From positions 1-64,000 of the forward strand of contig JADLDB010000062.1 of assembly GCA_020846875.1 (NCBI GenBank): a stretch of 64,000 bases of DNA, given 5' to 3'. Positions 15,581-41,300 of the stretch are shown here, piece by piece. This DNA is from Myxococcales bacterium (lineage in GTDB: Bacteria; Myxococcota; Myxococcia; Myxococcales; Myxococcaceae). The notes under the pieces are model-generated. The model ran no database searches. It saw only the letters and a program-made list of their open reading frames with translations, and had not been told where the DNA came from. Made by a program: the position numbers and the translations under genes. The number at the start of each line of letters is the position of its first letter. Position 1 is the first letter of the stretch.

Positions 15581-16066
15581 TCACGGCCTGCGCAGCGCTT
15601 CCGTCTCCAGCCCACAGGTCAGTTCGCCCAGCAGCTTCTGCGTGGTGACGATCGCCCGGGGCGACGAGGACGCGAGGAGCCGCTGCACGGCCAGCTCCAC
15701 CGTGGCCCGCGCGGGGTGATCGCGCCGGCGCCCCTTCGCCGAGAGGAAGAGGTGCGCCACCCGCCGATCGGTGACGCTCCGCCTGCGGACGAGCAGGCGC
15801 TTCTTCTCCAACCGCCCCACCGCGATGGAGATGGTGCCCGGATCGAGGTGGAGCTGCCTGGCGAGCTCGGACGAGGTGATGCCCGGGCGATGGCCGACGA
15901 CGCGAATGAACATGCGCTGCTGGGCGGTGATGCCGAGCTCGGCCTCCATGCGCTTGGACAGCCGCTCCAGCGCGTGGTTGAGCTGCCAGAGCGAGCGCAT
16001 GAAGGTGAGCGCCGGCGGCAGGATCAGCTCCCCGGGGTGAGGAGGTTCCTTCGGCGTGCGCTTCAC
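15581..16066 (-). CDS. MarR-family transcriptional regulator
   Basis: The product is 161 residues. The start is GTG 16066, overlapping the lpxI stop as GTGA. A helical dimerisation segment (SLWQLNHALERLSKRMEAELG) is followed by the winged helix: FIRVVGHRPGITSSELARQL, recognition helix DPGTISIAVGRLEKKRLL, and wing RRRSVTDRRVAHLFLSAKG. This is the classic MarR layout. Such proteins usually repress their own operon and respond to small aromatic or oxidised ligands. Its place as the last gene of the lipid A operon is unusual and may allow feedback on envelope synthesis; that is inference. It converges with the GH15 gene with seven bases between. Confidence 0.88.
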   Translation of the reverse strand: MKRTPKEPPHPGELILPPALTFMRSLWQLNHALERLSKRMEAELGITAQQRMFIRVVGHRPGITSSELARQLHLDPGTISIAVGRLEKKRLLVRRRSVTDRRVAHLFLSAKGRRRDHPARATVELAVQRLLASSSPRAIVTTQKLLGELTCGLETEALRRP

Positions 16067-16872
16067 GGAGCGAAGCCCACCACGGACAGCGCGAGCCGGT
16101 CGGCCCACTTGAAGAGCAGCGCCGCGTCCAGGAGCACCGCCTTCCCCGCCTCCACCGCCAGCACCTTCGCCCCCGCCTCGCGCATCACCTCCAGCGTCAC
16201 CGGCCCGGCCGCGGGGAGATCGAAGCGCGTGTCCTGCCCGGGCTTGAGGCGCTTGACCACCACGCCGCCCGGCCCGCCGTACCTCCCCGCGCGGCGGATG
16301 CACTCGTCGGTGCCCTCCACCGCCTCCACCGCCAGCACCACGCCGTCCTTCACCACCACCGTCTGCCCCACGTCCGCGCGCCCCAGGGAGGACGCCACCT
16401 CGCGGCCCAGCGCCACGTCGCGCTCCTGCTGCCAGGACAGCCTGGGGCCGGCCAGGTGGCCTTCGCGCGCCAGCACCTGTGGCACGAAGTCGGTGGCGGC
16501 GACGATGGTGACGCCCTGCTCCTCGAAGTACGCCGCCGCCGCGCGCAGCAGCTCGTCGTCGCGCATGCTGCGCACCTTCGAGGCGATCCGAAGCATGCCC
16601 AGGTCGGGCCGCGCCTGGGTGAGGCTGCGGATCCGCCCGATGCCGCCGGCCATCACCGCCTTCGTGACGCCCCGCCGCCGGAAGGCGCGCGCGATGTGCC
16701 CGGCCTGGCCCACCTTGACCCAGTCGAGGCTGGCGACCACGCCTTCAAGCTCGCCCTGCTCGGCCTCGCCCTCGAAGGCCACCGCGTGCACGGCCAGGCC
16801 CTTCTCTTTCGCCGCCTCCGCGAAGAGGACCGGCAGGCGTCCGCTGCCCGCGATGAGGCCGATGGACTCCAT
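16063..16872 (-). CDS. lpxI: UDP-2,3-diacylglucosamine diphosphatase
   Basis: The product is 269 residues matching the LpxI family (formerly DUF1009), which hydrolyses UDP-2,3-diacylglucosamine to lipid X in lipid A synthesis, in place of LpxH. Visible landmarks are IGLIAGSGRLPVLFAEAAK at the start, GGIGRIRSL, and the C-terminal catalytic-domain stretches VVVKDGVVLAVEAVEGTDE and KPGQDTRFDLPAAGPVT. It starts at ATG 16872, three bases after the lpxA stop, and overlaps the MarR gene. The operon context (lpxD, fabZ, lpxA) agrees with the assignment. Confidence 0.92.
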   Translation of the reverse strand: MESIGLIAGSGRLPVLFAEAAKEKGLAVHAVAFEGEAEQGELEGVVASLDWVKVGQAGHIARAFRRRGVTKAVMAGGIGRIRSLTQARPDLGMLRIASKVRSMRDDELLRAAAAYFEEQGVTIVAATDFVPQVLAREGHLAGPRLSWQQERDVALGREVASSLGRADVGQTVVVKDGVVLAVEAVEGTDECIRRAGRYGGPGGVVVKRLKPGQDTRFDLPAAGPVTLEVMREAGAKVLAVEAGKAVLLDAALLFKWADRLALSVVGFAP

Positions 16873-16875
16873 GCG

Positions 16876-17649
16876 CTACCGCGTGATGCCCCGCTTGCTG
16901 GTGGCGATGAAGTCCAGCATCGCCTCGATCTCTGGCTGCCCGCCGTACTCGGCCTTCAGGCGGCTGAGCGCCTCGTTGAGGCCCAGCTTGGAGCGGAAGA
17001 GGATCTTGTACGCGTCCTTGATGCGCGCGATCTGCTCCTCCGAGAAGCCGTGACGGGTGAGCCCCACGGTATTGAGGCCCGCCAGCTCGGCGCGATCCCC
17101 CTGTGCCGTGCAGTACGGCGGCACGTCCATCACCACCATGCCCCCGCCGGCGATGAAGGCGTGCTTGCCGATGCGGGTGAACTGGTGGACCGCGGACAGG
17201 CCCCCGACGATGACGTGGTCGCCGATCTCGACGTGGCCGGCCAGCGTCGCGGCGTTGGCCAGCACACAGCCGTCGCCGACGAGGCAGTCGTGCGCGACGT
17301 GGGCGTACGCCATGAAGAGGTTTCGGTTGCCCACCCGGGTGACCCCGCCGCCGCCGGTGGTGCCGGTGTGCAGCGTGGTGAACTCGCGAATGAGGTTCTC
17401 GTCACCGACGACCAGCTTCGTCTTCTCGCCTGCGTACTTGAGGTCCTGCGGCTCGGCGCCCACCGACGCGTGGTGGAAGATGCGGTTCTTCGCGCCGATG
17501 GTGGTGTCGCCCACGATGACGGCGTGCGGGCCGACGCTGGTGCCGGCGCCGATGGACACGTCGGGGCCGATGATCGCGTACGGGCCGATGGTGGCCTCGG
17601 GGTGCACCTTCGCCTTCGGGTCGACGATCGCGGTGGGGTGAATGCTCAC
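16876..17649 (-). CDS. lpxA: UDP-N-acetylglucosamine O-acyltransferase
   Basis: The product is 257 residues, the usual LpxA length, catalysing the first step of lipid A synthesis. It has the left-handed beta-helix hexapeptide repeats ([IV]xPxAxI type: IHPTAIVDPKAKVHP, ATIGPYAIIGPDVSIG). The catalytic His lies in MAYAHVAHDCLVGD, followed by HVIVGGLSAVHQFTRIG and a C-terminal helical domain (NTVGLTRHGFSEEQI). The start is GTG 17649, overlapping the fabZ stop by four bases, so an apparent upstream extension is not needed. Confidence 0.95.
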   Translation of the reverse strand: MSIHPTAIVDPKAKVHPEATIGPYAIIGPDVSIGAGTSVGPHAVIVGDTTIGAKNRIFHHASVGAEPQDLKYAGEKTKLVVGDENLIREFTTLHTGTTGGGGVTRVGNRNLFMAYAHVAHDCLVGDGCVLANAATLAGHVEIGDHVIVGGLSAVHQFTRIGKHAFIAGGGMVVMDVPPYCTAQGDRAELAGLNTVGLTRHGFSEEQIARIKDAYKILFRSKLGLNEALSRLKAEYGGQPEIEAMLDFIATSKRGITR

Positions 17650-18095
17650 GGCGTCTTCCCGTTGCGCCTGGCGATGGTCGCCAGAAACTCGCCTTCCGCC
17701 ACCACCTGCCCGTCCACGGTGGCGACGCCCCGCTGCTTCCACACCACCGACTTGGCCTTCACCACCTCGGCGGTCAGCGTGAGGCGATCGCCCGGCACCA
17801 CCGGCTTGCGGAAGCGCGCGCCGTCGATCCCCATCAGGTAGATGACGTACTCATCCTGCGAGAAGCCGGTGCTCTTGAAGGCGAGCAGCGCGCAGGCCTG
17901 GGCGAGCGCCTCGAGGATCAGCACGCCCGGCATCACCGGGTGGCCGGGGAAGTGGCCGTTGAAGAAGTCCTCGTTGGCGGTGACGTTCTTGTAGCCGACC
18001 AGCTTCTTGTGGAGCTCCAGCTCCACCACCCGATCCACCAGCAGGAACGGGTAGCGGTGCGGCAGGAGCTTCGCGATCTCGATCGAGTCCATCAT
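17646..18095 (-). CDS. fabZ: (3R)-hydroxyacyl-ACP dehydratase
   Basis: The product is about 149 residues with a hotdog fold, dehydrating 3-hydroxyacyl-ACP in fatty acid elongation and competing with LpxA for hydroxymyristoyl-ACP. Catalytic His48 lies in GHFPGHPVMPGVLI and Glu62 in EALAQ; LLPHRYPFLLVDRV at the N-terminus is typical. GTG 18098, ATG 18095 and ATG 18092 are consecutive; an AAAGG just upstream best serves the ATGs. The product clusters with lpxD and lpxA as in most Gram-negative bacteria. A second, more divergent FabZ-like protein is encoded at 23818-24276. Confidence 0.95.
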   Translation of the reverse strand: MMDSIEIAKLLPHRYPFLLVDRVVELELHKKLVGYKNVTANEDFFNGHFPGHPVMPGVLILEALAQACALLAFKSTGFSQDEYVIYLMGIDGARFRKPVVPGDRLTLTAEVVKAKSVVWKQRGVATVDGQVVAEGEFLATIARRNGKTP

Positions 18096-18101
18096 CACCT
18101 T

Positions 18102-19142
18102 TCAGGTCCTCTCCTTCTCCAGCGCCTCCAGGCGCTTCTTCAGCTCCCGCAGCTCCTTCGAGAGCTCGGGCAGCCTGGCGAACACCGCCGCCGCGCGCAG
18201 GAAGTCCTTGTGGGGCATGGCCGGCGCGCCCAACACCGTGGCGCCGTCGGCCACGTCGTGCATCACACCCGCCTGGGCGCCCACCTTCGCGAGATCGCCG
18301 ATGCGCAGGTGCCCGGCCACGCCCACCTGGCCCGCCAGCACCACGCCCTGCCCCAGGGTGGTGGTCCCGGACAGGCCCGCCTGCGCGCAGAGGATGGAGA
18401 GCGGCCCGACGACGCTGTTGTGGCCGACCTGCACCAGGTTGTCGATCTTCGTGCCCTTGCCGATGACGGTCTCGCCGGTGGTGGCGCGATCCACGCAGGA
18501 GCAGGCGCCCACCTCCACGTCGTCCTCCACTCGGGCGATGCCTGCCTGGGGGATCTTCACGTGCTCGGGCACGGACAGGTCCAGGGCGAAGCCGAAGCCG
18601 TCGGCGCCGATCACCGCCCCGGCGTGAAGCAGGCAGCGCGCGCCCACCACGCAGCGATCCATCACCGCAGCGTTGGGGGACAGCACCGTGTCCTCGCCGA
18701 CCCGCGCGCCGTCGCCCACGTACGCGCCGGGGTACAGCACGGCCCGCGCCGCCACGGTGGCGCCCTTCCCCACATACGCGTGGGCCATCACGGTGGCGGT
18801 GGCGTCCACCTGCGCCTCGGGGTGAATGGAGGCCTCGGTGGAGCGCCCCGGGGGGTGCGCCTTCTTCGGGTGGAACACCTGGGCGACGCGGGCGAAGGCG
18901 AGGTGCGGATTCGTCACGCGCACGTGGGTGCGGCTGCCGCGGGGAGGTGCGCCGTCGGCCACCAGCACCGCCGACGCCTTCGTGGCCGCGAGCTGCGCCT
19001 TGTACCTCTGGTTCCCGTAGAAGGAGAGCTGCCCGGGCTGGGCTGCCTCCAGGCCGCTGACGCCGGAGATCTCCAGCGAGCCATCGCCGTCTACCTCGCC
19101 GCCCACCAGGGAGGCCAGCTCGCGGATCGTCCTCGCCCTCAC
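18102..19142 (-). CDS. lpxD: UDP-3-O-(3-hydroxyacyl)glucosamine N-acyltransferase
   Basis: The product is 346 residues, normal for LpxD, the third step of lipid A synthesis. An N-terminal uridine-binding domain (LEISGVSGLEAAQPGQLSFY) is followed by a long hexapeptide-repeat beta-helix (SIHPEAQVDATATV onward). The catalytic His lies in NLVQVGHNSVVGPL, and a C-terminal helix follows (FARLPELSKELRELKKRLE). It starts at GTG 19142, overlapping the skp stop by four bases. Confidence 0.95.
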   Translation of the reverse strand: MRARTIRELASLVGGEVDGDGSLEISGVSGLEAAQPGQLSFYGNQRYKAQLAATKASAVLVADGAPPRGSRTHVRVTNPHLAFARVAQVFHPKKAHPPGRSTEASIHPEAQVDATATVMAHAYVGKGATVAARAVLYPGAYVGDGARVGEDTVLSPNAAVMDRCVVGARCLLHAGAVIGADGFGFALDLSVPEHVKIPQAGIARVEDDVEVGACSCVDRATTGETVIGKGTKIDNLVQVGHNSVVGPLSILCAQAGLSGTTTLGQGVVLAGQVGVAGHLRIGDLAKVGAQAGVMHDVADGATVLGAPAMPHKDFLRAAAVFARLPELSKELRELKKRLEALEKERT

Positions 19143-19690
19143 GGCTTCGGGGCGTCCTTCGGGGGCGCGGCCGGCTTGCCCTTCGCCGGGTGCTTCTCGT
19201 TGTAGGTGCGGACCAGCTCGTTGGTGAGATCCATCGACGACGGGGCGTAGACGAGGCCCGAGTCGCTCTTCTCGAACACCATGGCCAGGCCTTCGCGCTG
19301 GGCGATGGAGGCGATGATCGGATCCATCTTGTCGAAGATCTTCTTCAGCTCGGTCTGCTCCTTCTTGGCCAGGTCGAGCTGGGCCTGCTGCTCGCGCTGG
19401 GTCAGCTCGATGACCTTCTTCTGCATCTCGGCGTACTTCTGCACGCGGACCTCTTCGCTCATCATCGCGGCCTGCTTCTCGAGGACGACGCTGTCGGTGC
19501 GCAACCTGGTCTTCTCGGACTCCAGCCCGCTCTTCAGCTTGTCCAGCTCGCCCTTGAGGCGGGCCTTGGCTTCCTTGCCTTCGTGCACTTCCGTCAGCGC
19601 GCGCTGGAGGTCGACGTAGCCGAGCTTCAGGTCGGCGAGCGCGGGAGTGGCGAGCACCAGGGTGAGGAAGAGGATGAGCGCTGGGCGCAT
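19139..19690 (-). CDS. skp: Skp/OmpH-family periplasmic chaperone
   Basis: The product is 183 residues. The start is ATG 19690, preceded by AGGAG five bases upstream, and begins with a signal peptide (MRPALILFLTLVLATPALA). The mature protein has DLKLGYVDLQRALTEV then a long charged coiled coil (about 45-130) and a short C-terminal beta segment, the Skp layout. It should hold unfolded outer-membrane proteins in the periplasm. In most proteobacteria bamA precedes skp; here skp is the first gene behind an apparent promoter, so the bam genes must lie elsewhere. Confidence 0.92.
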   Translation of the reverse strand: MRPALILFLTLVLATPALADLKLGYVDLQRALTEVHEGKEAKARLKGELDKLKSGLESEKTRLRTDSVVLEKQAAMMSEEVRVQKYAEMQKKVIELTQREQQAQLDLAKKEQTELKKIFDKMDPIIASIAQREGLAMVFEKSDSGLVYAPSSMDLTNELVRTYNEKHPAKGKPAAPPKDAPKP

Positions 19691-19721
19691 GGGGGCTCCT
19701 GTCGCGGTGAAACGCGCGCGG

Positions 19722-19750
19722 ACCCTATGTGTGGGGGGTGGGGGGGTCAA
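19722..19750 (-). promoter_or_regulatory. Candidate sigma-70 promoter of the skp-lpx operon
   Basis: On the minus strand TTGACC (5/6 to the -35 consensus) is followed by a 17-base spacer and TAGGGT (3/6 to the -10). Transcription would start about 25 bases before the skp ATG, leaving room for the AGGAG site. The spacer is almost pure C with a few A, an unusual composition that appears as a G tract on the plus strand. Confidence 0.45.
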
Positions 19751-19805
19751 GGCATGCCACTCGAACTGCTCGCGTCGGCCCCGGCGGCTCTGGTAGGACG
19801 GCCGC

Positions 19806-20186
19806 GTGGAACAGAAGCGGATCCTCCTCATCGACGACAGCGAGATCACCCTCGCGATGGAGAAGGCGGTGCTCGAGGCGCGTGGCTACGACGTGCGCGC
19901 GACGTCGACGCTGATGGAGTTCGAGAAGATGCTGGCGGACTTCAAGCCGCACGTGATCCTCACCGACATCCACATGCCCGAGGCGAAGGGCACGGACATC
20001 TGCCGGACGCTGAAGAACGAGTACAACACGCAGGACATCCCGATCGTGTTGTTCAGCTCGCTCAAGGACGAAGAGCTGGAGGCGCTGGCCACGCAGGTGG
20101 GCGCGGACGGCTACCTGTCGAAGGCGCACGGAGTCGAGGCGCTGGGCGAGAAGGTGGATGAGCTGTTCGAGAGCATCATCTGGTGA
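19806..20186 (+). CDS. Single-domain response regulator (CheY-like)
   Basis: The product is 126 residues from GTG 19806, a stand-alone receiver domain. It has the acidic pocket (LLIDDS), the phospho-acceptor Asp in ILTDIHMPE, the conserved Ser in VLFSSLKDEE, and the Lys in YLSKAHG. There is no output domain, so it acts by protein contact, as in phosphorelays or chemosensory pathways. No kinase gene is adjacent, making it an orphan. The cytochrome gene start lies inside its 3' end (29-base overlap), so the two are likely co-transcribed. Confidence 0.93.
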   Translation: MEQKRILLIDDSEITLAMEKAVLEARGYDVRATSTLMEFEKMLADFKPHVILTDIHMPEAKGTDICRTLKNEYNTQDIPIVLFSSLKDEELEALATQVGADGYLSKAHGVEALGEKVDELFESIIW

Positions 20187-21699
20187 ACGGGGGCTGGTGC
20201 TCCTGCTGCTGCTCCTGGCGGCGTGCACCACGCGCGAGAGCCGCCCCACTCGTCCCCCCACCAAAGCCATCCTCTACTTCTCTGCGGACCTGAAGGGCTA
20301 CCTGGGCCCCTGCGGGTGCAGTGAGAACATGCGCGGCGGCATCTCGCGGGCGGCGGGCGAGTTGGCGAAGGCGCGGTCCACCGGAGTGCCGGTCTTCTTC
20401 ATCGACGCGGGCGACGGGCTGTTCGGCGCGCCGTCCATCCCCGAAGACGCCGTCCCGCAGCAGGAGCGCAAGGCGAAGGCGCTGGCGCAGGCGCTCAGGG
20501 CGATGGGGTTGTCGGTACGTGCGCCGGGGCCGATGGACGACGCGCGGGGGGAGGCCTTCCGTGAGTCCTTGCAGTTGCCCGAGGTGAGGCCCGGGGCCGT
20601 CCGCTGGCTCGCGGCTGGGGCGTACCAGGTGGCGGTGATCTCCGCGGGCGACGTGGCGGCGGCGGAGGCGCTGGCGGCGAAGGCGCGGCGCGACGGGGCG
20701 GCCTTCATCGTGGCGCTGGTGCCGCAGGCGATGGAGGCAGCGCTGCGCGGGGCCCTCACCGCTCCGAGCGTCGACCTGGTGATCGCCTCGAAGCCCAAAG
20801 ACGACTTCACGGCGGAGGAGAGCCGGGCTGCCGGCGGCACGACGAAGGTGGTGCAGGTGCAGAACAAGGGGCGGACGCTGCTGCGCGTGGACGTGTCCTT
20901 CCGCGACGGCGGGAAGGTGGAGTGGGTGAAGGGCAGCTCCGAGCGCGACCGCGAGCTCTCCGCGCTGGATGAGCGGATCGAGCTGTTGCGCGCGCAGGTG
21001 GACGCGCCGGGGCTGGGTGGCGAGCTCAAGGGCCTCAAGCAGGCCAAGCTGAACGAGCTCGTCGCGCGGCGGCAGGCGCTGGCGGAGGCTGCCCTGCCCT
21101 TCCCGGTCGATCGCAACGCGGCGACGTTCCACTTCGTCCCCCTGGAGTCCAGCCTCCCGCGGGATCCGGCGGTGCAGGCGATCGAGGCCGCGTACGACCG
21201 CGACGTGGGCCTGCTCAACCTGGAGTGGGCGAAGCAGCACGGGAAGGACTGCGATCCGCCGGCTGCCGATCGCGCGGGCTACGTGGGCAGCGCGGCGTGC
21301 GTCGGCTGTCACCCGTTCGCGGAGAAGGTGTGGCAGGCGACCAAGCACCCGCGCGCGTACGCCTCGCTCGAGGAGAAGGGGAAGCAGAACCACCTCGACT
21401 GCATCGCCTGTCACGTCACCGGCTGGAAGCAGCCCGGAGGCGTGTGCCGCATCGATGCTACCCTCGGCCGCCGCGAGGTGGGCTGCGAGTCGTGCCACGG
21501 GCCGGGCTGGCGCCACATCCAGGTGCCGGTGAAGGAGCACCTCAAGCGCGGGAAGGACGCCGCGACGTGCACCGGGTGCCACGATCGCGAGAACTCGCCG
21601 CACTTCGAGTTCGAGACGTACGTGCAGAAGGTCCTCGGGCCCGGCCACGGCCAGCCGCTGCCGCCGGACGCGGGCCAACTGCCCCGAGTCACGCCCTGA
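20158..21699 (+). CDS. Four-heme cytochrome c lipoprotein with nucleotidase-like N-terminal half
   Basis: The product is 513 residues. ATG 20158 is chosen because it supplies an Arg-containing signal peptide with lipobox LAAC (Cys23). The first half resembles the metallophosphoesterase module of UshA-like cytochromes (GYLGPCGC, RGGISRAAGEL, FFIDAGDGLFG). The usual metal-binding D-x-H-G is D-L-K-G here, so hydrolase activity is doubtful. The C-terminal part has four CXXCH heme sites (CVGCH, CIACH, CESCH, CTGCH) with further histidines for axial ligation. A periplasmic electron-transfer lipoprotein is likely. Its end overlaps the end of the convergent PPTase gene by 11 bases. Confidence 0.85.
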   Translation: MSCSRASSGERGLVLLLLLLAACTTRESRPTRPPTKAILYFSADLKGYLGPCGCSENMRGGISRAAGELAKARSTGVPVFFIDAGDGLFGAPSIPEDAVPQQERKAKALAQALRAMGLSVRAPGPMDDARGEAFRESLQLPEVRPGAVRWLAAGAYQVAVISAGDVAAAEALAAKARRDGAAFIVALVPQAMEAALRGALTAPSVDLVIASKPKDDFTAEESRAAGGTTKVVQVQNKGRTLLRVDVSFRDGGKVEWVKGSSERDRELSALDERIELLRAQVDAPGLGGELKGLKQAKLNELVARRQALAEAALPFPVDRNAATFHFVPLESSLPRDPAVQAIEAAYDRDVGLLNLEWAKQHGKDCDPPAADRAGYVGSAACVGCHPFAEKVWQATKHPRAYASLEEKGKQNHLDCIACHVTGWKQPGGVCRIDATLGRREVGCESCHGPGWRHIQVPVKEHLKRGKDAATCTGCHDRENSPHFEFETYVQKVLGPGHGQPLPPDAGQLPRVTP

Positions 21700-22270
21700 C
21701 CGGGACGAGCGCGAACGCCGCGAAGCGACCGTCCTGCGAGAGGCTGACGTCGACCGGGTGCGGCTGAGCGCGCACCTCGACCCGGGGTGGCCCGAGGCCG
21801 TCGTAGGCGTCGGCGCGGGGCGCGCGAACGACCCTTGCTTCTTCGAGGCCGAGGTGCACGAGGAGCGCGGCGCGCGCGTCCGGGCCGACGATCACCTCGC
21901 GGTGCGGCTCACCCTCACCCACCCAGGCGACCGCGTGGATCGCCCGGCCATGCACGTCGACAGTCCCCCGGGCCCGCACCGCGGACGGGAGCGTCACGGA
22001 GAAAGGAGCGCCAGCGAGGGGCGCGCGGTCGACGATGAAGTTGCGGTGGGCGAAGACAGGCACCGGCCCGAGCTTCGAGGCCAGCTTGAACGCGGCCTCC
22101 TTCGCGGCGAACAGCACCCACAGCAGCGTGCGCGGATCGTCGCTCTGGGCGAGCAGCTCGCGCTCAGAGGGCGCGCACACCCGCTCGATGAAGCGCTGCC
22201 GCGTGCGCTCGGACGCGGGCGAGACGTCGTCAAGGTCGACGACGTCGTTGCCGACGGCGCCCTGGCTCAC
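21689..22270 (-). CDS. 4'-phosphopantetheinyl transferase
   Basis: The product is 193 residues from GTG 22270, which overlaps the ACP stop as GTGA. It carries VGNDVVDL near the N-terminus (Mg-binding Asp) and WVLFAAKEAAFK, the [FW]xxKExxxK signature of Sfp/AcpS-type transferases, plus DVSLSQDGRFAAFAL at the C-terminus. It should load the phosphopantetheine arm onto the serine of the adjacent acyl carrier protein. A dedicated transferase in the same operon as an atypical ACP suggests the housekeeping AcpS does not serve this carrier; that is inference. It is the last gene of the eight-gene lipid operon. Confidence 0.88.
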   Translation of the reverse strand: MSQGAVGNDVVDLDDVSPASERTRQRFIERVCAPSERELLAQSDDPRTLLWVLFAAKEAAFKLASKLGPVPVFAHRNFIVDRAPLAGAPFSVTLPSAVRARGTVDVHGRAIHAVAWVGEGEPHREVIVGPDARAALLVHLGLEEARVVRAPRADAYDGLGPPRVEVRAQPHPVDVSLSQDGRFAAFALVPVRA

Positions 22271-22521
22271 GCCTTGCCGGTCTTCATGATGAGCGTCACG
22301 GCGTCGCCGACCGTCTTCACCTGGTCGGCCTGCTCGTCGCTCACCGCGATCCCGAAGGCGTCTTCGATCTCGAGCACGATGTCGACGAGGCGCGCCGAGT
22401 TCACCTTCAGATCCTTGAGGATCGACGTCTCCATCGACACCGAGCTCAGCGCGTCGGCGTTCTTCACGAACGGCCGGAGGATCTCGACAACCTTACCCAT
22501 CACTTCAGCCTGCTGCTCCAT
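22267..22521 (-). CDS. Acyl carrier protein, atypical phosphopantetheine motif
   Basis: The product is 84 residues with the four-helix ACP pattern. The carrier serine is Ser42, in LKVNSARLVDIVLEIED. Ordinary FAS carriers have DSL at this point; here it is NSA, losing the Asp that normally precedes the serine and helps recognition by AcpS. Acidic helix II (DIVLEIEDAFGI) is retained. The start is ATG 22521 with an excellent ribosome site (AAGGAG, six bases upstream). The gene sits between a KS and a PPTase gene. Similar divergent carriers occur in specialised lipid or polyene pathways. Confidence 0.9.
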   Translation of the reverse strand: MEQQAEVMGKVVEILRPFVKNADALSSVSMETSILKDLKVNSARLVDIVLEIEDAFGIAVSDEQADQVKTVGDAVTLIMKTGKA

Positions 22522-22527
22522 GTGTGA

Positions 22528-22533
22528 CTCCTT
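22528..22533 (-). promoter_or_regulatory. Strong ribosome binding site of the ACP gene
   Basis: AAGGAG read on the minus strand, six bases before ATG 22521. The ACP is the only downstream gene in this operon separated from its neighbour by a real gap (31 bases) and the only one with a strong independent site. This fits the need for carrier protein in excess over the enzymes. Confidence 0.7.
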
Positions 22534-22552
22534 CGTACCCGTACCGCGTTGT

Positions 22553-23821
22553 TCAGCTCTTCCACTTCCTGAAGACGACGCACCCGTTCACGTCGCCGAA
22601 CCCGAAGCTTGCCTTGGCGATCACCTCGAGCGGCAGCTCCACCGTGCGGCGCGCGACGCGGCGCTCGAACGGCGCGATGTCGGGGTGCAGATCGTCGCAG
22701 TTGGCCGAGCCGTGCACGAAGCCGTGGTGCAGCTCGAGGACCGAGGCGACGCACTCGATGCCGCCGGCGGCGCCCAGCGCGTGCCCGATGAGGGACTTGG
22801 TGGAGTGCAGCAAGGGCATCTCGTCGGGCTTGAGCTCCAGCGCCTTCGACCAGTTCGCGACCTCGTGGGGATCGGCGAAGGTCGCCGTGAGGTGGCCGTT
22901 GATCGCGCCGATCTCTCTGGGCTGCACGCCGGCCATCCTCACCGCCGCGCGAATACAGCGCTGCACGCTGACCGGGTTGGGCGCCGTCATGCTGCCGCCC
23001 ATGCGGTGGCCGCCGCAGTTGACGTCACCGCCCAGCACCTCCGCGTAGATGCGCGCGCCCCGCGCCCTCGCCGACTCGAGGCTCTCGAGCACCAGCACGC
23101 CCGCGCCCGAGCCGGGCACGAAGCCCGCGGCGCTCGCGCTCATCGGCCGCGACGCCTCGGCGGGCGCGCCGTTCTTCGTGCGGTTGAGCACCTTCATGCC
23201 GTCGAAGCCCGCCCAGATGTACTTCGAGCTGCCCTCCGAGCCGCCCGCGAGCATCCGCTCGGCCCTGCCCTCGCGAACGCGGAAGAACGCGTCGATCACC
23301 GCCTCGGTGCCGGTGTTGCACGCGCTCGAGTTGGTGGTGACCTGGTTGCCCAGCCCGAGCAGGCCCGCGACGCGCGCGCTGTTGCCGCTCGACATGATCT
23401 GCTCGACCATCGTCGAGCCGAGCCGCCCCACCTTGCCCTGGTCGACGCGCGGCGCCAGCTTCTCGGCGATGGTGTCGATGCCGCCGATGCCGGTGCCGAT
23501 GATCGCGCCGGTGTCCCAGTCGACCTTCTCGGTGCTGCGCTCGAGGCCCGCGTCGGTCCAGGCGTCGATCGCCGCGATGGCCGCGTAGACCATGTTCGGG
23601 TTCATCGCGAGGAGCTCTTCCTGGGATAGGTACCGCCCCTGCAGCTCGTCGACGCCCTCGGGGATTCCGCCGACCTGGCACCCGAACTTCGCGTCCGCGA
23701 GGTGCTGGTGAAAGCGAATGCCGCTCTTCCCCGCGCGCAGCGCGCCAGCGAACGCCTCGAGGCCGTGCGCGTTCGGCGCCAGGACGCCCATGCCCGTGAC
23801 GACCACTCGCCTGTCGCTCAT
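22553..23821 (-). CDS. Beta-ketoacyl-ACP synthase, FabB/FabF-like
   Basis: The product is 422 residues with the two-lobed thiolase fold. The nucleophile is Cys168 (SSACNTGTEAVIDAF), with His310 in NGHLTATFADPHE, Lys342 and His347 in TKSLIGHALGAAGG; FGFGDVNGCVVF closes the protein as in FabF. The catalytic triad is intact, but the surroundings differ from housekeeping enzymes: CNTG instead of CATG/CATS, and HLTAT instead of HGTST. A specialised condensing enzyme is suggested. The gene overlaps the FabZ-like gene by four bases upstream. Confidence 0.92.
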   Translation of the reverse strand: MSDRRVVVTGMGVLAPNAHGLEAFAGALRAGKSGIRFHQHLADAKFGCQVGGIPEGVDELQGRYLSQEELLAMNPNMVYAAIAAIDAWTDAGLERSTEKVDWDTGAIIGTGIGGIDTIAEKLAPRVDQGKVGRLGSTMVEQIMSSGNSARVAGLLGLGNQVTTNSSACNTGTEAVIDAFFRVREGRAERMLAGGSEGSSKYIWAGFDGMKVLNRTKNGAPAEASRPMSASAAGFVPGSGAGVLVLESLESARARGARIYAEVLGGDVNCGGHRMGGSMTAPNPVSVQRCIRAAVRMAGVQPREIGAINGHLTATFADPHEVANWSKALELKPDEMPLLHSTKSLIGHALGAAGGIECVASVLELHHGFVHGSANCDDLHPDIAPFERRVARRTVELPLEVIAKASFGFGDVNGCVVFRKWKS

Positions 23822-24276
23822 CTCTCGACTCCCATGCCCGCGACGGTCCCCCGCGCGACCACCCGGTCGCCGGCGTCAGGCAGCGTCAGCACCACGTTCG
23901 ACTTCAACTTGCGCCGCCGCCAGAAGACCTTCTCGGCAGTCACGCGCACCCTGTCGTTCGGCCGCACCACGTGCTCGAACTCGACCTGCGCCTCGGTGAA
24001 GAGCGTCGTCACGCGCTCGACGGCTTCCTTCGGCGCTTCGAGACCGAGCAGCCAGATTCCGAACGCGACGACGCCCGTCTGGCACATCGTCTCGATGAGG
24101 ATGACCCCGGGCGTCACCGGGTTCCCGGGAAAGTGCCCGGCGTAGAACGACTCGTCGGGCCGGAAGGTGTACTCACCCACCGCGCCGCCCTCGTCGATCT
24201 TCACCAGCCGGTCGAGGAAGCGAAACGGCCGCTGCTGCGGTACCAACGCGAGCACCTCGTCGAGAGCCAGCCTCAC
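23818..24276 (-). CDS. FabZ-like hydroxyacyl-ACP dehydratase
   Basis: The product is 152 residues with a hotdog fold. The motif YAGHFPGNPVTPGVILIETMCQ (residues 46-67) has His48 and Glu62 in the same places as FabZ; VPQQRPFRFLDRLVKI replaces the usual LPHRYPF opening. It should dehydrate 3-hydroxyacyl chains on the operon's carrier protein. It is clearly different from the housekeeping FabZ at 17646-18095. Four-base overlaps on both sides (KS and FabA genes) couple its translation. Confidence 0.88.
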   Translation of the reverse strand: MRLALDEVLALVPQQRPFRFLDRLVKIDEGGAVGEYTFRPDESFYAGHFPGNPVTPGVILIETMCQTGVVAFGIWLLGLEAPKEAVERVTTLFTEAQVEFEHVVRPNDRVRVTAEKVFWRRRKLKSNVVLTLPDAGDRVVARGTVAGMGVER

Positions 24277-24875
24277 GCCGCCCCCCGCTGCTTCATGATC
24301 CCACCCTTGCTGTTCGCCGAGCGCGCCGGGAAGTCGGGGTAGGCGATGCCGGTGAACATGCCGACCTTCGCGTCGGCGATCGTGTAGACGAGCTCGCCGT
24401 CGACGAGCACCCGGCCGTTCGCGATGGCCAGCGCGGCGCCCGAGTCCTTGAGCAAGGTGAACCGGCGAACGTCAACCTCGTAGCGGACGAGCCGATCGTA
24501 CGGGCGGATCTGCCCCGCGAACTCGACCTCCTTGCAGCCCAGGGCGCGGCCCGAGCCGACCGCCCCGTTGAGGCCGCAGTACAGGCCGATGAGCTGCCAC
24601 ACCGCGTCGACGCCCAGGCAGCCAGGCTGCACCGGATCCCCGCGGAAGTGACACTGGAAGTACCAGGCGTCGGGGTGAATGTCCTGCTCGCCCACGATGC
24701 GGCCGCGCGGCCCGTTGCGGGTGATTTCCACGACGCGGTCGAACATCAGCATCGGCGGCGCGGGCAGCCGCATGAACTCGGCCGGCGCACCGCCGATCGA
24801 GTTGCCCTGCGAGAGGCCGAGCAGCTCCTCCTTCGAGAGGCTGGTGCGCCGCAGCAGCTCTTCGTAGTGCATCAT
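24273..24875 (-). CDS. FabA-type 3-hydroxydecanoyl-ACP dehydratase/isomerase homologue
   Basis: The product is 200 residues. ATG 24875 overlaps the KSIII stop (ATGA). It has strong FabA hallmarks: LPAPPMLMFDRVVEI, DAWYFQCHFRGDPVQPGCLGVDAVWQLIG with catalytic His76 and Asp90, and ADAKVGMFTGIAYPDFP near the end. FabA enzymes dehydrate and, in the classic case, isomerise the trans-2 to the cis-3 double bond, opening the unsaturated branch with FabB. Pairing with a FabB/F-like KS suggests this operon makes an unsaturated or polyene acyl chain. The C-terminal 20 residues extend beyond standard FabA. Confidence 0.9.
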   Translation of the reverse strand: MMHYEELLRRTSLSKEELLGLSQGNSIGGAPAEFMRLPAPPMLMFDRVVEITRNGPRGRIVGEQDIHPDAWYFQCHFRGDPVQPGCLGVDAVWQLIGLYCGLNGAVGSGRALGCKEVEFAGQIRPYDRLVRYEVDVRRFTLLKDSGAALAIANGRVLVDGELVYTIADAKVGMFTGIAYPDFPARSANSKGGIMKQRGAA

Positions 24876-25867
24876 GACGCCGCGACCTCCAGCTCGAGCG
24901 CCGCCCAGGTCAGGCCCGAGCCGACGACGACGAGCACCACCGAGTCGCCCGCACCCAGCTCGCCCCACCGCTGCGAGAGCACGCTCGGGGCGCCGGCCGC
25001 GCCGGTGTTACCGAAGTCCTCGACGTTGCGGAAGTGGTCGGCCGCGTCGACGCCGGCGCGCTTGGCGACTGAGTCGAGCATCATGCCGTTCGCCTGGTGA
25101 CCGACGAAGCGCACGCGGCCGCCGGTCCTCGCCACGCGCGCGCGGGCGCCGGGCAAGAGCCGCTCGAGGCAGGCGAGCGTCGTCTTGATCGCGAAGCGCT
25201 GCACCTGGCTGCCTTCCTGCGCGAAGTGCCCGAAGCGGGGCACCGTCACCAGCGCGCAGCCGGCCGGCGAGCTCTCGAGCAGGGTGCGCGTCACCGCGAG
25301 GCGCGCGCGCACCTGCGTGGAGACGATCGCCGCGCTCGTCCCGTCGCCCCACAGCACCGCGTTGGCGCGATCGCGGTAGTCGACCACCCGCGTCGTGTTC
25401 TCGGGGTTCACCACCAGCACGAAGCGCGGCAGCGCGGTCATCTGCGCCAGCAGGTGGAGCTGCGCGCCGAAGCTCGAGCACGCCGAGTTCACGTCGAACG
25501 CCGGCGCCTCGATGCCGAGCGCGTTCGCGACGCGCGCCGCCTCCGAGGGGATCTGCATCTCTGGCGCGCAGCCGCCCGCGACGACCATGCCGATGTCCGA
25601 GGGCCCCAGCTTCGCGCGCTCGAGCGCCATGAGCGCCGCGCGCCTGGCGGTCTCGACGTTCGAGTAGAGCGCGGCTTCCTGCGCCGCCGCCAGGTCGGCG
25701 TTGCGCGACGAGCGGATGAAGTCGAGGGGCAGCACCGTGCGTCGCTGGCGAATGCCGACGCGCTCCAGGATCCACTCGTCGTCCGTGCCGATGTCGAGCG
25801 ACTCGAGGAACTGGTTGTCGATGACGTTCTCGGGGTGAAAGTGCCCGAGCGAGTGAAGGTAGAGCAT
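24872..25867 (-). CDS. Ketoacyl synthase III (FabH-like)
   Basis: The product is 331 residues with the full FabH triad: Cys130 in NSACSSFGAQLH, His257 in VGHQANGMML and Asn287 in FGNTGAAG. The N-terminus (LHSLGHFHPENVIDN, TDDEWILERVGIRQRR) is typical of KSIII primers. It should condense a starter acyl-CoA with malonyl-ACP, or transfer an acyl group, to begin the chain. SGLTWAALELEV at the C-terminus matches VGSGxxWA-type endings. The starter is unknown. The gene lies three bases after the reductase stop. Confidence 0.92.
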   Translation of the reverse strand: MLYLHSLGHFHPENVIDNQFLESLDIGTDDEWILERVGIRQRRTVLPLDFIRSSRNADLAAAQEAALYSNVETARRAALMALERAKLGPSDIGMVVAGGCAPEMQIPSEAARVANALGIEAPAFDVNSACSSFGAQLHLLAQMTALPRFVLVVNPENTTRVVDYRDRANAVLWGDGTSAAIVSTQVRARLAVTRTLLESSPAGCALVTVPRFGHFAQEGSQVQRFAIKTTLACLERLLPGARARVARTGGRVRFVGHQANGMMLDSVAKRAGVDAADHFRNVEDFGNTGAAGAPSVLSQRWGELGAGDSVVLVVVGSGLTWAALELEVAAS

Positions 25868-25870
25868 CGG

Positions 25871-26824
25871 CTAGCCCGCCACCCGTTCACCGCCGTCGAC
25901 GCGGATGAGCGCGCCGTTGACCCAGCGAGCCTCGTCGGTGGCGAGCAGGCAGATGAAGTCGGCGACGTCGGCCGGCGTGGTGAGGCGGCCGAGCGGGTTC
26001 CGCAGGCGCGCGCCTGCCTTCATTCGATCGTTGCCGGGGATCAGCCGCAGCGCGGGCGTGTCGGTGACGCCGGCCTGCACGATGTTCGACCGCACGCCGT
26101 AGGGCCCGAGCTCCACCGCGATCGACCGTGAGCACGACTCGAGCGCGAGCTTCCCCGCCGAGACCGCCGCGTAGCCACGCCAGGCGAGCTCGTTCCCCTC
26201 GCTGGTGAGCCCGATGACGCGCGCGTCGGCGGAGAACAGGCCCCGCGTAAAGAGGTCCTGCGTCCACGTCACGAGGCTCGTCCCCATGCTGTAGACCGTA
26301 CGGGCGAAGTCTTCGTCTTCGAGGTTGAGGCCCGGCTCTGACGCGGGCGCCTCGACGAGTTCGGCGAGCGCGTCGGCCGTGCCCGAAGCGAACACCGCGC
26401 GCACGGCCTCGCCGAGCACCCCGGCGTCGACGCCGAGCTTCGCGGCGAGCTGCTCGCGCGCGCTCACTGCCCCGGCCTGGACCTTCGCGTCCACCAGCGG
26501 CTTCAGGTTGCCGAAGGCGATCGAGTGGAGCAGCAGGCGCACGCGGCCCGAGCCCAGCTTCGCGGCGAGCGCGTCGAGCGCGGTCTTCCGGCCTTCGAGC
26601 GAGAGGGCGTCGAGGTTCATCGTCAGCACCGACACGCCGGTCGCGCGCAGCTCGTCGAACTTCGGCTCGATGGCCGGCATCGCGCCCTTGCGATCGCGGT
26701 GGACGATCGCCAGGTTCATTCCGTGGCGTGCCAGCTTCTGCGCCGTCGCCAGACCGAAGCCGCTGGAGCCCCCGAGGATCAGCGCCCAGTACGACGGATC
26801 GAAGCGAAACCGTTCTGTCAGCAC
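25871..26824 (-). CDS. FabI/FabL-type enoyl-ACP reductase (SDR family)
   Basis: The product is 317 residues from GTG 26824. The longer frame would need a TTG and would overlap the acyltransferase gene. A Rossmann start (ALILGGSSGFGLATAQ) precedes LLHSIAFGNLKPLV. The active-site pair is Tyr218 and Lys225, a Y-X6-K spacing diagnostic of enoyl reductases rather than the Y-X3-K of ketoreductases. RLTTPADVADFICLLATDEARWVNG and VDGG end the protein as in FabI and FabL. An insert of about 55 residues (about 113-170) is unusual for FabI. Its role would be to saturate chosen double bonds. Confidence 0.87.
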   Translation of the reverse strand: MLTERFRFDPSYWALILGGSSGFGLATAQKLARHGMNLAIVHRDRKGAMPAIEPKFDELRATGVSVLTMNLDALSLEGRKTALDALAAKLGSGRVRLLLHSIAFGNLKPLVDAKVQAGAVSAREQLAAKLGVDAGVLGEAVRAVFASGTADALAELVEAPASEPGLNLEDEDFARTVYSMGTSLVTWTQDLFTRGLFSADARVIGLTSEGNELAWRGYAAVSAGKLALESCSRSIAVELGPYGVRSNIVQAGVTDTPALRLIPGNDRMKAGARLRNPLGRLTTPADVADFICLLATDEARWVNGALIRVDGGERVAG

Positions 26825-26849
26825 CCCGCGCCGACTAGCACCCGCATTG

Positions 26850-27611
26850 TCATGGCTTGGCCACGGCAACCATGCCGCGCTGCGCCAACCACGCGTCTTC
26901 CATCGCCTTGAGCTTGCCGATGACTTGCCGTGAGAGGTCGCGCACCCCGCGCAGACCCGTCTGGGCCGTCGCCGGCTCGATGAGCTCGAGCCTCAAGTCG
27001 AGCGTATCGCCCCACGCCGGCACGCCGGTCGCCGCCTGCTGCTTGCGGCCGCGCAGGTAGGCGCAGAGCACCTGCGGGCGATCGAGGCCCTGGAGGATCT
27101 GCCCGATGCCGTAGGTCACCGCGTTCGGATCGATGCGCCCGGCGCGGCTGCGCGTGCCCTCGGGGAAGATCGTCAGCACCTCGCCGCGCGAGACGAGCCA
27201 CCGCAGTTGCTCGATCACGCCCTTGCGGTGCTCGTCATCGCCGCCGCGGTCGATCGGTACTGTTTTGGCGAGGAAGACGAGAGACTTGAGGAACGGGTTC
27301 TTGTCGAAGTGCTCGAGCGCGGCGACGTTCCACGACAAGCGCTCGTAGTGCAGCAGGTAGTCGGGCAGCGACGCGAGCGCCCAGTGCAGGAAGCCCGAGT
27401 CGACCATCGTGAGGTGGTTCGCGCAGACGATCGTCGGGCGCCCGGTGGCGAGCGCGGCCCGGTAGACGCGCCGCGCCTCCTCGATGCCCTCCAGCTTGTT
27501 GTTGCGGATCACCCGCATGGTGAAGACGCAGCCCGCGCCGACCGCCGCGAACGCCACCCAACCAAGGCGGCGCTGCCAGCGCAGGTGCCGTTGCTGGGCG
27601 GGCGTGATCAT
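26850..27611 (-). CDS. Membrane-linked glycerolipid acyltransferase (PlsC-like)
   Basis: The product is 253 residues from ATG 27611. An N-terminal hydrophobic helix (VAFAAVGAGCVFTM) precedes the HX4D motif NHLTMVD (His66, Asp71) and FPEGTRSRAGRI, both hallmarks of the PlsC/lysophospholipid acyltransferase family. It would move an acyl chain from ACP or CoA onto a hydroxyl acceptor, probably a lysophospholipid or another lipid. It is the first gene of the eight-gene operon, so it may be the step that delivers the product of this assembly line to a lipid. The acceptor is unknown. Confidence 0.9.
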   Translation of the reverse strand: MITPAQQRHLRWQRRLGWVAFAAVGAGCVFTMRVIRNNKLEGIEEARRVYRAALATGRPTIVCANHLTMVDSGFLHWALASLPDYLLHYERLSWNVAALEHFDKNPFLKSLVFLAKTVPIDRGGDDEHRKGVIEQLRWLVSRGEVLTIFPEGTRSRAGRIDPNAVTYGIGQILQGLDRPQVLCAYLRGRKQQAATGVPAWGDTLDLRLELIEPATAQTGLRGVRDLSRQVIGKLKAMEDAWLAQRGMVAVAKP

Positions 27612-37800: not shown

Positions 37801-38270
37801 GCTTCGAGGGCATCTGCCTGCTCAACCACGCCCTGCTGCTCCTCGAGCAACGGGACGTCGAGGCCGGCGGCGAGCTGCTGGAGGAGGCGCTCTCCCTCTT
37901 CCTCGCGGTGGGGGACAAGCGGCACGCGGGGCTGGCGTACGGGGCGCGCGGGGCGCTCCGGGCGTGGGCGAAGCGGCCGGGCGCCGCCGAGGACATCGAC
38001 GCCGCGCACGCCACCCTGGGTGCCGGCGGGGACGTGGCCTTCCGCGCGTCCGTCGACGTCTACGCGGCGCAGCTCGATCTCTCGAAGGCGCTGGCGCTGG
38101 ATCAGCAGGGCAACGAGGCGCTGGCGACGAAGGCGCGGGCCGCCGCCACGGCCCGCATCGACACCGCGGTGGCCGCCGAGCCGGGTGGATCGCGCGCCGA
38201 GCGCTTCGAGCACGTCCGCATGGGCTTGCGGGTGCTCAAGGCCTGGTCCACCCCGCTGGCCGCCGGGTAG
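34842..38270 (+). CDS. Ser/Thr kinase fused to STAND NTPase and TPR repeats
   Basis: The product is 1142 residues from GTG 34842. Kinase domain 5-285: glycine loop LGRGGMGEVF (complete), Lys36, HRDVTPHN with Asp142, DFG 160-162, SPEQ. After a charged linker comes an NB-ARC/STAND-type NTPase: Walker A GPGGVGKS (397-404), Walker B CLVVLDN (468-474), GSR sensor and GMPLAIELAAAQ (about 564-575). A winged-helix-like stretch follows. TPR repeats fill about 830-1070 (ALAYLGSVRKQVG, LANLGAIAMEKG, FSNLATMQQMRG, LTNLGDLERDRG). No membrane segment. The layout is that of an oligomerising sensor in which TPRs bind a trigger and the kinase is the output. The trigger is unknown. Confidence 0.92.
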   Translation: MTRFGKYTLVSLLGRGGMGEVFLARAPGVQRPVVIKRILSTMVPDGEVLRGFLDETRIAARLRHPHIIRIDELGEVEGEWYIRMEYVEGASLSQVMKTAAKAGEYLGLGVCLYVTGCIASALEHAHQARDPEGRPLHVVHRDVTPHNVLLGRSGAVKLIDFGVARAEQRFQFTSPGLVKGKLAYMSPEQADGKKVDGRTDLFALGICLWEILTGRRLFRGETVPETLQRLIALQIAPPSMYRADVPPEVDALVLKALSREPEGRFQRAADFVEAIDTVCDQYELTQGARHLSALIRRLIPEAGHAEGLAPDEEPTAQLEASDARSEVTRHDRRRPPPPQQPDTRETRAPEGSEPDADALTEFRAPVVEEGSLIGRAGELADLHQMLGAGDRLVTLLGPGGVGKSRLAREAARQQAANYSGRVFFADATAARDVEGLCLTVAEALGAALPPGGNPIEGVSALLASRRRCLVVLDNVEHLQNEAGEALSAWLLASRGGRFLVGSRVALEVAEEKTYEVAPLRLDGGDEAESDAATLFLERATQANPRFPGGKWAREAVRELVRRLDGMPLAIELAAAQMADAPLEALREQLHDTSEGSRGSLRGVDEAFAASWDMLSDAERAALAQCTVFAAGFTAEAAVRVLRVPGRQGVHAEGVLQALHKLRSKSLLRISYAATSDSPRYVMYESLRARVMGRLPEEEEKARRRHAEWFLRFGETLGEEAEKGGGVLDVLATERENLVAAWRWWLSQGKEGARNALRVLLALDAFFVVRGPYGGQRTMLDTTLGQLDSPEDRAPGLEARARVLLARGRPAEAAADLDAVLATVSDPATQARALAYLGSVRKQVGSLVEAQVLFERALRDLRKVRDERMQGRVLANLGAIAMEKGRMDDAQDLYSAALELHKKSGDRRFEGVTFSNLATMQQMRGAWKEAEDSLSRALAIHRELGNRRSEGMALTNLGDLERDRGAGARAIALYRRAVLVNQEVGNRRFEGICLLNHALLLLEQRDVEAGGELLEEALSLFLAVGDKRHAGLAYGARGALRAWAKRPGAAEDIDAAHATLGAGGDVAFRASVDVYAAQLDLSKALALDQQGNEALATKARAAATARIDTAVAAEPGGSRAERFEHVRMGLRVLKAWSTPLAAG

Positions 38271-38349
38271 CGGAACTCCGCTGCGTCCCACGGCGTCCCT
38301 GAGTACACTCGCCACCCTCGATTCGAGGTCCCACGAGGGGGAAGCCACC

Positions 38350-41300
38350 ATGAAGCGACACCTGCGCGGCGCCGTCCGCTCCCGCTGGCTGTGGATCGTC
38401 CTCGGCCTTCTTGCCCTGGGCCTGCTGATCGCCTCCACGCAGACGTGCCTGCGCACCGGCTTCGGCTACGGGCTGTGGATCGACGAGTGCCCGGACGGCG
38501 AGGTGCGGCAGACGATTGAGGTCGACTCCTCGGGCCTGTCGCGCCGCGCTTTCCAGAGCATCAGCGTGCGCGTCACCGCGCACTACGCGATCGGCGGCGA
38601 GGAGGCCGTCGGCGTCGAGCCCCTATCCCGCTTCACGCCCACCGTGGCGCTCGTCACCGCGCAGGGCGAGACGCTGCTCACGCCGAAGGAAGGGTGGACG
38701 TCGTCGGGGGGCCCGATGACGGCGGAGGTGGAGCTGCCCAAGGTGAATGACGGCGAGTACACCCTGCGGGCGCGCGCCAGCTCCGCCCTGGGCGACGCGC
38801 AGCTGGACGTGCCGCTGCCCCTCTTCACCCCGGCGCGCATCCACGTCCTCACCGATCGCCCCCTCTACGAGCCGGGCAACACGGTGCGCTTCCGGGCGCT
38901 GGCGCTCAAGGCCGACGACCTGAGCCCGCTGGAGGAGCGGCCCGGCACCTGGCGGGTGGTGGATCCCTCCGGCACGGTGCTGCTCGAAGAGAAGGCGCCC
39001 AGCGGCAAGTGGGGCGTGGTGTCCGGCAGCTTCCCGCTCGATCTCGGCGCCCAGTCCGGCGCGTGGATCGTCTCCTGGAGCAGCGGCAGCGACAGCCAGT
39101 CGCGCACCTTCGACGTGCGGCCCTTCACCCTGCCCCGCTTCCGGGTAGAGGCGGCGGCGGCGAAGCCCTGGTACCGGCGCGGTGAGCGGCCGGTGGTGAA
39201 GGGGACGGTGAAGTACGCCTCGGGCGCGCCGGTGGCGAAGGCGAAGGTGCAGGCCCGCTGGGGCGCCTCGGGGGAGTGGCCGCCGCCGGCCAACTGGGCC
39301 GACGGTACCGCGCTGCCGAAGCAGGCCACCACCACCGCCGAGGGCACCTTCACCCTCGAGCTGCCCCAGGTGCCGCAGGATCTCCAGGGCCAGGCCACGC
39401 TGATCGCCAACCTGGAGGCCATCGACGCGGCGGGCGATCGCGTGGAGGGCAGCGTCTCGGTGCTGCTGTCGCGGGACGACATCGCCGTCACCGCCGTCAC
39501 CGAGCTGGCCGACGGCCTGGTGGAAGGCTTCAACAACAAGGTCTTCGTGCGCGCCACCACGCCCGACGGGCAGGTGCTGAGCGGCGTGGTGCTGAACGTG
39601 AAGCGCCTGTGGGAGGCCTCGGACAAGGGCTCCGACGCGGAGGTGGACGAGGACGGCGTGGCCGGCCTGCAGCTCGATCCTGGCCCGCCGGTGAACGTGG
39701 TCATCCCCGCCATGCCCTTCCGCCCGCCGCCCCCCACCCCGCCGGTGCGACGGCAGGGCCTCGAGGAGCTGCTCGACCTCGACGAAGACGGCGACGTCTC
39801 CCTCGCGGATCGCCTCACGTTCGATCGCGCGCAGGCGCGGGTGGGTGAGTGCGCCCGCTACGTCGGCGACGCTTCGGCCACCTCCGTCGCCGGCCTGCTG
39901 GTGCGCGCCTCCGGGGCCGTCTCCGAGGTGTCGACCCAGGGCGGGCGGCTGGGGAGCTGCCTTGGGCGAGCGCTCAAGGGCCTGCGCTTCGAGCCCGGCC
40001 GGGAGCGCTTCTTCCAGGCCTATTACGTGTTCGACGACGGCGAGCTCCCGCGCTTCGAGCTCGAGGTGCAGGGCGTACCGGTGGTGCCGCCTTCCCTTCA
40101 GGAGCGCCTCGCCGACGCGATGCTGGACGCCCGCGACTGCCTGCCGGCCAACGTCCGCAGCGGTCAGTTCCCCCGCCTGCTGCAGTGGAAGGTGGGGCCC
40201 GATCGCAAGCGCGTCGACCTGAGCTGGGTGCCGATCAAAGGTGACGCCTTCTCGGAAGGCGCGCTGGGCTGCGTGCAGAGCCGGGTGAAGGGCCTGGCCC
40301 TGCCGGTGGAAGGCGACGAGGAAGACCTGCCCGGCCAGGCGATCGGCGCCGCCTTCGTACAGGTGATCGCCCCCGAGAGGTACGAGTCGCTCCGCCCGCA
40401 GGACACGGTGATGGTCGGCTACGAGCTGCAGGTGACGGCGAAGAAGAAGGGCGAGGTGCTGGGCCGCACCACCCTGCGCCTCAACCCGGGCGCGGTGCCG
40501 CAGATCCGCCTCCGGGCAAAGAGCCAACTGCTACGCCCAGGCGAGGCCGTCACCGTGGAGCTGCTCCGCGGCCCCGACTTCACCGGCGAGCTGCCCGAGA
40601 AGCTGTACCTGCGCCACGCCTACCAGGCCGTGGAGGCGAAGCTGGACGAGAAGACGCGCAGCGCCCAGTTCCAGGTGCCCGCCGACTGGCAGGGCTGGGC
40701 CGGCGTCGAGTGGGGCGGCGGCCAGGTGCTCTTCTTCGTGCAACCCCAGGCGCCGCTCAGCGTGGCGGTGACGCCGGAAAAGGAGCGCTACGCCCCCGGC
40801 CAGGTGGCGCAACTGGACGTGCGCACCGCCGAGGGAGGCAGGGGCGCGCCGGCGGGCGTGGGGCTGTTCGGCGTGGACGACAGCCTCTCGCAGTTGGTGT
40901 CCTTGCCCGGCGCGGACGAGCTGGCTTCCGTCCGGCCGCAGGCCACCGGCGCGGCCGCCTTCGGCTCGCTGGACGCGCAGGCCCTGTCGCTGGGGCGCAT
41001 CCGCGGCGCCAACGCCGCCGCCGCCACGCTGATCCGCGTGTCCTCCCTGCCGCCGCCGCCCGCCGTCGAAGCCTCGGTGGCGGTGCACGGCGCGACCAGC
41101 TTCGATCCCAACGAGACGCTGGTGGATCGCTTCTACGCGGTGCTGGGCGAGCTCTACGCCCAGGAGCGCGCGTGGGAAGCCAGCGCCCCCGCCAGCGAGA
41201 AGCTGACGCCCCCGGTGATGGCGCGGCTGTGGAGCCAGGCGCTCGACGCGGTGGAGGCGAAGAAGGAGTCGGCGCGTGACGCCTTCGGGCGGAAGCTGCG

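Follow-up and report, generated by a model that had tools for sequence, protein, structure and literature searches.

Gene content of the operon

The window analysed here, a stretch of 64,000 nucleotides from a Myxococcales bacterium, contains an operon of eight genes on the minus strand (positions 21689-27611). In gene order, these are:

26850..27611, minus strand: PlsC-like acyltransferase, 253 aa, operon gene 1 (Pfam PF01553, E 5e-14)
25871..26824, minus strand: SDR-type enoyl-ACP reductase (ER), 317 aa, with Y-x6-K (PF13561)
24872..25867, minus strand: FabH-like ketosynthase III (KSIII), 331 aa (PF08541/PF08545)
24273..24875, minus strand: FabA-type dehydratase/isomerase, 200 aa (NCBIfam NF003509, 206.7 bits)
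23818..24276, minus strand: divergent FabZ-type dehydratase, 152 aa (PF07977, 2e-18)
22553..23821, minus strand: elongating ketosynthase (KS) of a distinct subfamily, 422 aa (PF00109/PF02801)
22267..22521, minus strand: acyl carrier protein (ACP), 84 aa, NSARLVD at the phosphopantetheine serine (PF00550)
21689..22270, minus strand: phosphopantetheinyl transferase (PPTase), 193 aa (PF01648, E 2e-12)

This layout had been proposed in a sequence-only reading of the DNA, and it holds in detail: each identity agrees with Pfam and NCBIfam, the genes are joined mostly by 4-base overlaps (four of seven junctions, the remaining three being gaps of 25, 3 and 31 bases), and all catalytic residues were recovered by alignment with the E. 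coli enzymes and by motif checks. The lack of a ketoreductase and a malonyl transferase applies to the window copy; relatives do have both. With 70.4% GC versus 70.9% for the window, the operon shows no GC anomaly. Since the same genes turn up in the same order in nearly all 80 loci fetched (see below), we do not consider the arrangement a product of chance.

Elsewhere in the window, two overlapping plus-strand ORFs (38020-41424 and 41400-43823), the first with MG2 and the bait region and the second with A2M, together resemble one alpha-2-macroglobulin; they are either a split gene or the result of a frameshift.

Conserved residues and family models

The operon FabA aligns with E. coli FabA at the active-site His and the FabA-type Asp, and its PDB relatives are FabA enzymes. 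It scores 206.7 bits with the NCBI model for bifunctional FabA (NF003509, cut-off 124) and 178.8 bits with the stricter TIGR01749, below the cut-off of 238. Both marks of a bifunctional FabA, the His plus Asp active site and a FabA-family score, are therefore present. The FabZ His/Glu motif is found in 76 of 77 homologues of the FabZ-type dehydratase. KSIII has the Cys, His and Asn of E. coli FabH; about 18 inserted residues are specific to its family. All 44 ER homologues carry GY-x6-K; the AlphaFold model of the window ER (pLDDT 91) matches FabL (3oid) best among PDB folds, with many SDRs close, and the protein has an internal insertion absent from its sister copy in locus L051. In the acyltransferase, NHx4D is invariant (62/62 operon homologues) and FPEG is seen in 55 of 62.

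The KS is unusual. Its catalytic residues C168, H310, K342 and H347 match those of E. coli FabB and FabF, and the predicted fold is that of an ordinary KAS I/II enzyme, to which FabB and FabF structures fit about equally. The surrounding loops are altered: all 79 operon KSs have GFGDVN in place of the FabB/FabF motif GFGGTN and NGHLT[AG]T in place of HGTST, neither canonical motif occurring once (0/79), and the third loop reads N[CS]GGxR throughout. These motifs are located at the active-site His loop and at the so-called gating loops. The tree of KSs against housekeeping copies, which the sequence-only reading had suggested, places the operon KSs on a separate long branch (support 100/100), apart from FabB, FabF and the housekeeping FabFs; because the loci were picked by similarity, this monophyly is partly built in, and more weight belongs to the motif counts.

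The ACP contains the serine in an unusual context, with NSxRLVD in 77 of 78 operon homologues where AcpP has DSL. Together with GFGDVN of the KS, this motif makes the operon family easy to recognise. The operon PPTase is the best PF01648 match of its genome; the only other match, a weak one, is an Sfp-type protein close to a type I PKS (C104:3644-3817). A PF01648 search found no PPTase of AcpS size (about 130 aa) in the window genome, so the operon enzyme may also load the housekeeping ACP; an AcpS-size match is likewise missing from some complete relatives.

A separate housekeeping fatty acid synthase

The window genome comprises 7.06 Mb and is estimated to be 100% complete. Three full-length ketosynthase N-domains are encoded in it, belonging to a type I PKS, to a FabF on contig C32 and to the operon KS. 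Contig C32 shows the canonical housekeeping order fabH, two genes, ACP and fabF, the two genes being assigned as fabD and fabG by position. Apart from the operon pair, the genome contains a single PF07977 protein:

17646..18098, minus strand: housekeeping FabZ in an lpxD-fabZ-lpxA-lpxI cluster, outside the operon (PF07977, 3e-36)

This full separate set upholds the proposal of a secondary, dedicated and self-loading type II synthase. The sequence-only reading had also named the case in which the operon holds the only KS, FabA and ACP genes of the genome; KS and ACP are not unique, and FabA is, according to a search of the genome. That the operon might be the organism's primary fatty acid synthase (FAS) is suggested by three Syntrophales genomes, in which it provides the only FabA-fold dehydratases. 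For the window genome we reject this possibility in view of fabH-fabD-fabG-acpP-fabF on C32 plus the fabZ at 17646-18098, and with the operon KS found in just 5 of 195 Myxococcota genomes it appears very improbable altogether.

The housekeeping fabZ is part of an OmpH-LpxD-FabZ-LpxA-LpxI cluster (16063-19849, minus strand), which uses LpxI and adjoins the operon. The distance of about 2 kb invites the idea of a second FAS that makes a special acyl group, be it saturated, hydroxylated or of defined chain length, e.g. for lipid A or a surface lipid; FabA would then act mainly as a dehydratase. The operon also recalls the alphaproteobacterial AcpXL-FabZ-FabF-LpxXL arrangement in that it unites a dedicated ACP and KS with a FabZ-type enzyme and an acyltransferase. 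However, the acyltransferase is of the PlsC and not the LpxL type, plus-strand genes lie between operon and lpx cluster, and the operon FabA retains the FabA-type Asp. Moreover, no neighbour outside the operon recurred widely across the 80 fetched loci (based on crude gene calls), which leaves a functional link to the lpx cluster unsupported. We thus regard a synthase for such special acyl groups as rather improbable.

Distribution of the operon

We scanned a single genome of each species, using an alignment of four KS sequences as query; at least 99 loci were confirmed, and 80 of these were fetched. The sequence-only reading had looked to the Myxococcota for conserved synteny. It does exist there, in the rare carriers mentioned above, but this frame was too narrow, as the 80 fetched loci come from about eight phyla. 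Listed were loci from Myxococcota, Syntrophales, Desulfobacteraceae, Spirochaetota, Marinicella, Lysobacterales, Burkholderiales, Gemmatimonadota, Calditrichota, Latescibacterota and Bdellovibrionota. Within the family of the window genome, the KS was found in three genomes only (G002, G005 and G009; 82-83% identity), and in the phylum of one Syntrophales genome 22 of 395 genomes carry it, all with at least 670 bits.

As far as the contigs reach, the order KSIII-FabA-FabZ type-KS-ACP is kept in nearly all 80 fetched loci; usually, the ER precedes this core, while PlsC and PPTase follow it. Between operon genes, pairwise distances are correlated (r 0.73-0.86), which indicates that the operon moves as a unit. 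We read the operon as a horizontally moving type II FAS that is probably orthogonal to the housekeeping one.

Some loci deviate. In three spirochaete loci (L068, L071 and L115), the ER is directly followed by the FabZ-type gene or the KS, with no adjacent KSIII or FabA. In L045, part of the KSIII gene (VLVVNPENTTRVVDY...) occurs twice at the start of a MAG contig (positions 1-663), which is probably an assembly artefact. The Spirochaetales genome of L089 encodes, besides its type II operon, a multidomain protein of Pfa-like build, which has KS-type domains and a pair of FabA-like ones (G109:C22:19158-24587).

The nearest relatives of the window operon, L051 and L059, have the order PlsC-FabD-ER-KSIII-FabA-FabZ type-KS-ACP-PPTase, the placement of FabD agreeing with a direct reading of L051. 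In the window, PlsC and ER are separated by just 25 bases and the FabD site is empty, so FabD was lost from this copy. In other lineages, an SDR, probably FabG, is located between FabA and the FabZ-type gene, although the presence of FabG in single loci is uncertain, since the ketoreductase query overlapped FabA and some A labels read G. Many relatives thus carry a FabD and/or FabG of their own. Judged by these gene orders, the window operon is a reduced form of an ancestral system that was nearly self-sufficient. As relatives carry both genes and the window copy does not, it must borrow FabD and FabG, in agreement with the sequence-only reading; FabD is added in relatives exactly where the window lacks one.

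Relation to known systems

The closest published relative is an ACP-FabB-FabZ-FabA-FabH operon of Coxiella burnetii (CBU_0034-CBU_0038), which was proposed to serve the synthesis of unsaturated fatty acids (PMC5423948). It was horizontally acquired from Deltaproteobacteria or spirochaetes and exists alongside a vertically inherited FAS; reduced growth in Vero cells was reported for insertion mutants of CBU_0035 and CBU_0038 (PMC5423948). The match in origin and in the five-gene core order FabH-FabA-FabZ-FabB-ACP was established from the published description. The operon studied here has the same features, i.e. the FabH-FabA-FabZ-KS-ACP order, a separate FAS in the genome and a patchy distribution across phyla, but the Coxiella report does not mention a PPTase, PlsC or ER (PMC5423948). 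A literature search for a characterised product of the operon yielded this report only, and among the papers found none describes the complete module including PPTase, PlsC and ER or demonstrates what it makes.

With the E. coli FabA/FabB pathway, the operon shares a genuine FabA with the FabA-type Asp and a condensing enzyme with a KAS I/II fold. It differs in that its components are private and clustered, whereas E. coli has scattered genes and uses one ACP, PPTase, FabG, FabZ and FabI for this pathway and for the main FAS; furthermore, the operon KS falls into a clade separate from FabB.

The sequence-only reading had likened the operon to polyene lipid and specialised-metabolite loci. Neither label is supported, given that there is no chain length factor (CLF) partner, that an ER is present and that the content corresponds to an ordinary FabA-type unsaturated cycle. 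Its statement that this is no standard aryl-polyene or DarAB locus was right. Such clusters likewise combine KS, dehydratases, ACP, acyltransferase and PPTase in one locus; however, aryl-polyene clusters have a KS/CLF pair and the operon one elongating ketosynthase only. It also lacks an ammonia lyase, a DarA/DarB-type enzyme and an exporter, contains an ER, and its KSIII scores a mere 26.9 bits with NF005293 (StlD/DarB; cut-off 450). Gene content and family-model scores rule this class out, and we give it practically no weight.

A dissociated type II synthase for polyunsaturated fatty acids or long polyenes, where FabA and the FabZ-type enzyme would iterate with the special KS and PlsC would insert the product, deserves more consideration. 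Two different dehydratases and a divergent KS whose loop motifs are altered are in line with it, as is the presence of the operon in genomes that already have desaturases. The private ACP, PPTase, acyltransferase and dehydratases parallel the activities of PfaABCDE, whose dehydratase domains act repeatedly. Like the type I Pfa synthases, the operon thus offers a broadly equal set of activities, including FabA-like dehydratases and its own PPTase, but in the form of discrete single-function proteins (according to Pfam) and without multidomain PfaA/PfaC, tandem ACPs, a CLF or a Pfa-type acyltransferase, which excludes a Pfa synthase proper. Against a type II counterpart speak the absence of tandem ACPs and of a CLF-like second KS and the fact that one cis double bond fully accounts for the gene content; in addition, the relatives include anaerobes, for which we found no polyunsaturated lipid in the literature searched. 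We therefore consider this explanation unlikely.

A proposed private route to unsaturated acyl chains

Our preferred explanation, to which we would assign a probability of roughly 60%, is a second, orthogonal type II FAS that supplies membrane phospholipid with acyl chains, most likely cis-unsaturated and probably straight. The operon PPTase would load the private ACP, housekeeping FabD would provide malonyl-ACP, and KSIII would initiate the chain. Each cycle would include reduction by housekeeping FabG, dehydration by the FabZ-type enzyme and FabA, and saturation by the ER. At one chain length, FabA would isomerise the enoyl intermediate to the cis-3 form, which would bypass the ER and be elongated by the operon KS; the finished chain would pass from the private ACP to a lysophospholipid via PlsC. 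We infer that the ACP is exclusive, that FabA isomerises to the cis form, that PlsC delivers the chain and that priming is of the straight-chain type, and we likewise infer the product. From sequence, chain delivery to lipid by the operon PlsC is plausible, and a synthase that is insulated and ends in phospholipid is suggested by the fact that the operon has a FabA, KS, ACP, PPTase and PlsC of its own.

In most of 20 genomes that carry the operon, no stand-alone protein of FabA size other than the operon FabA was found. Three Syntrophales assemblies of unstated completeness (G104-G106) gave neither a PF07977 dehydratase beyond the operon nor a match to FA desaturases, which makes the operon the evident oxygen-independent route there. 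For Marinicella litoralis, again with completeness of the assembly unstated, we found FabF and the operon KS, and no separate FabB or third elongating KS. Our literature searches yielded no fatty-acid data on Syntrophus or Marinicella.

Several findings count against this explanation: FabA is not invariant (L068, L071 and L115), and the operon KS has the FabF-like Ile at the position of E. coli FabB Gly107. To our knowledge, E. coli FabF cannot stand in for FabB in unsaturated synthesis. The window genome also has six matches to the FA-desaturase family, as several occur in most Myxococcaceae, in operon-bearing and operon-free relatives alike. Since desaturases are already there, the operon is not needed for unsaturation in this family and would be an optional addition. 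A trade-off between operon and desaturases was not seen among 98 relatives, a comparison of weak power with only four operon carriers.

A more far-reaching version, in which a horizontally mobile and fully private FAS runs in parallel to the housekeeping one and equips the membranes of bacteria from many phyla with an additional set of acyl chains, possibly polyunsaturated ones, is a tentative idea that we hold to be doubtful. The operon family is scarcely studied so far. If our explanation is true, many bacteria would rely on a pair of fatty acid synthases, working in parallel and insulated from each other, to make their membranes, and groups such as the Syntrophales would have an oxygen-independent route to unsaturation. 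The poorly understood Coxiella operon would be joined to a broad family, and the operon would represent a natural case of ACP/PPTase/KS orthogonality.
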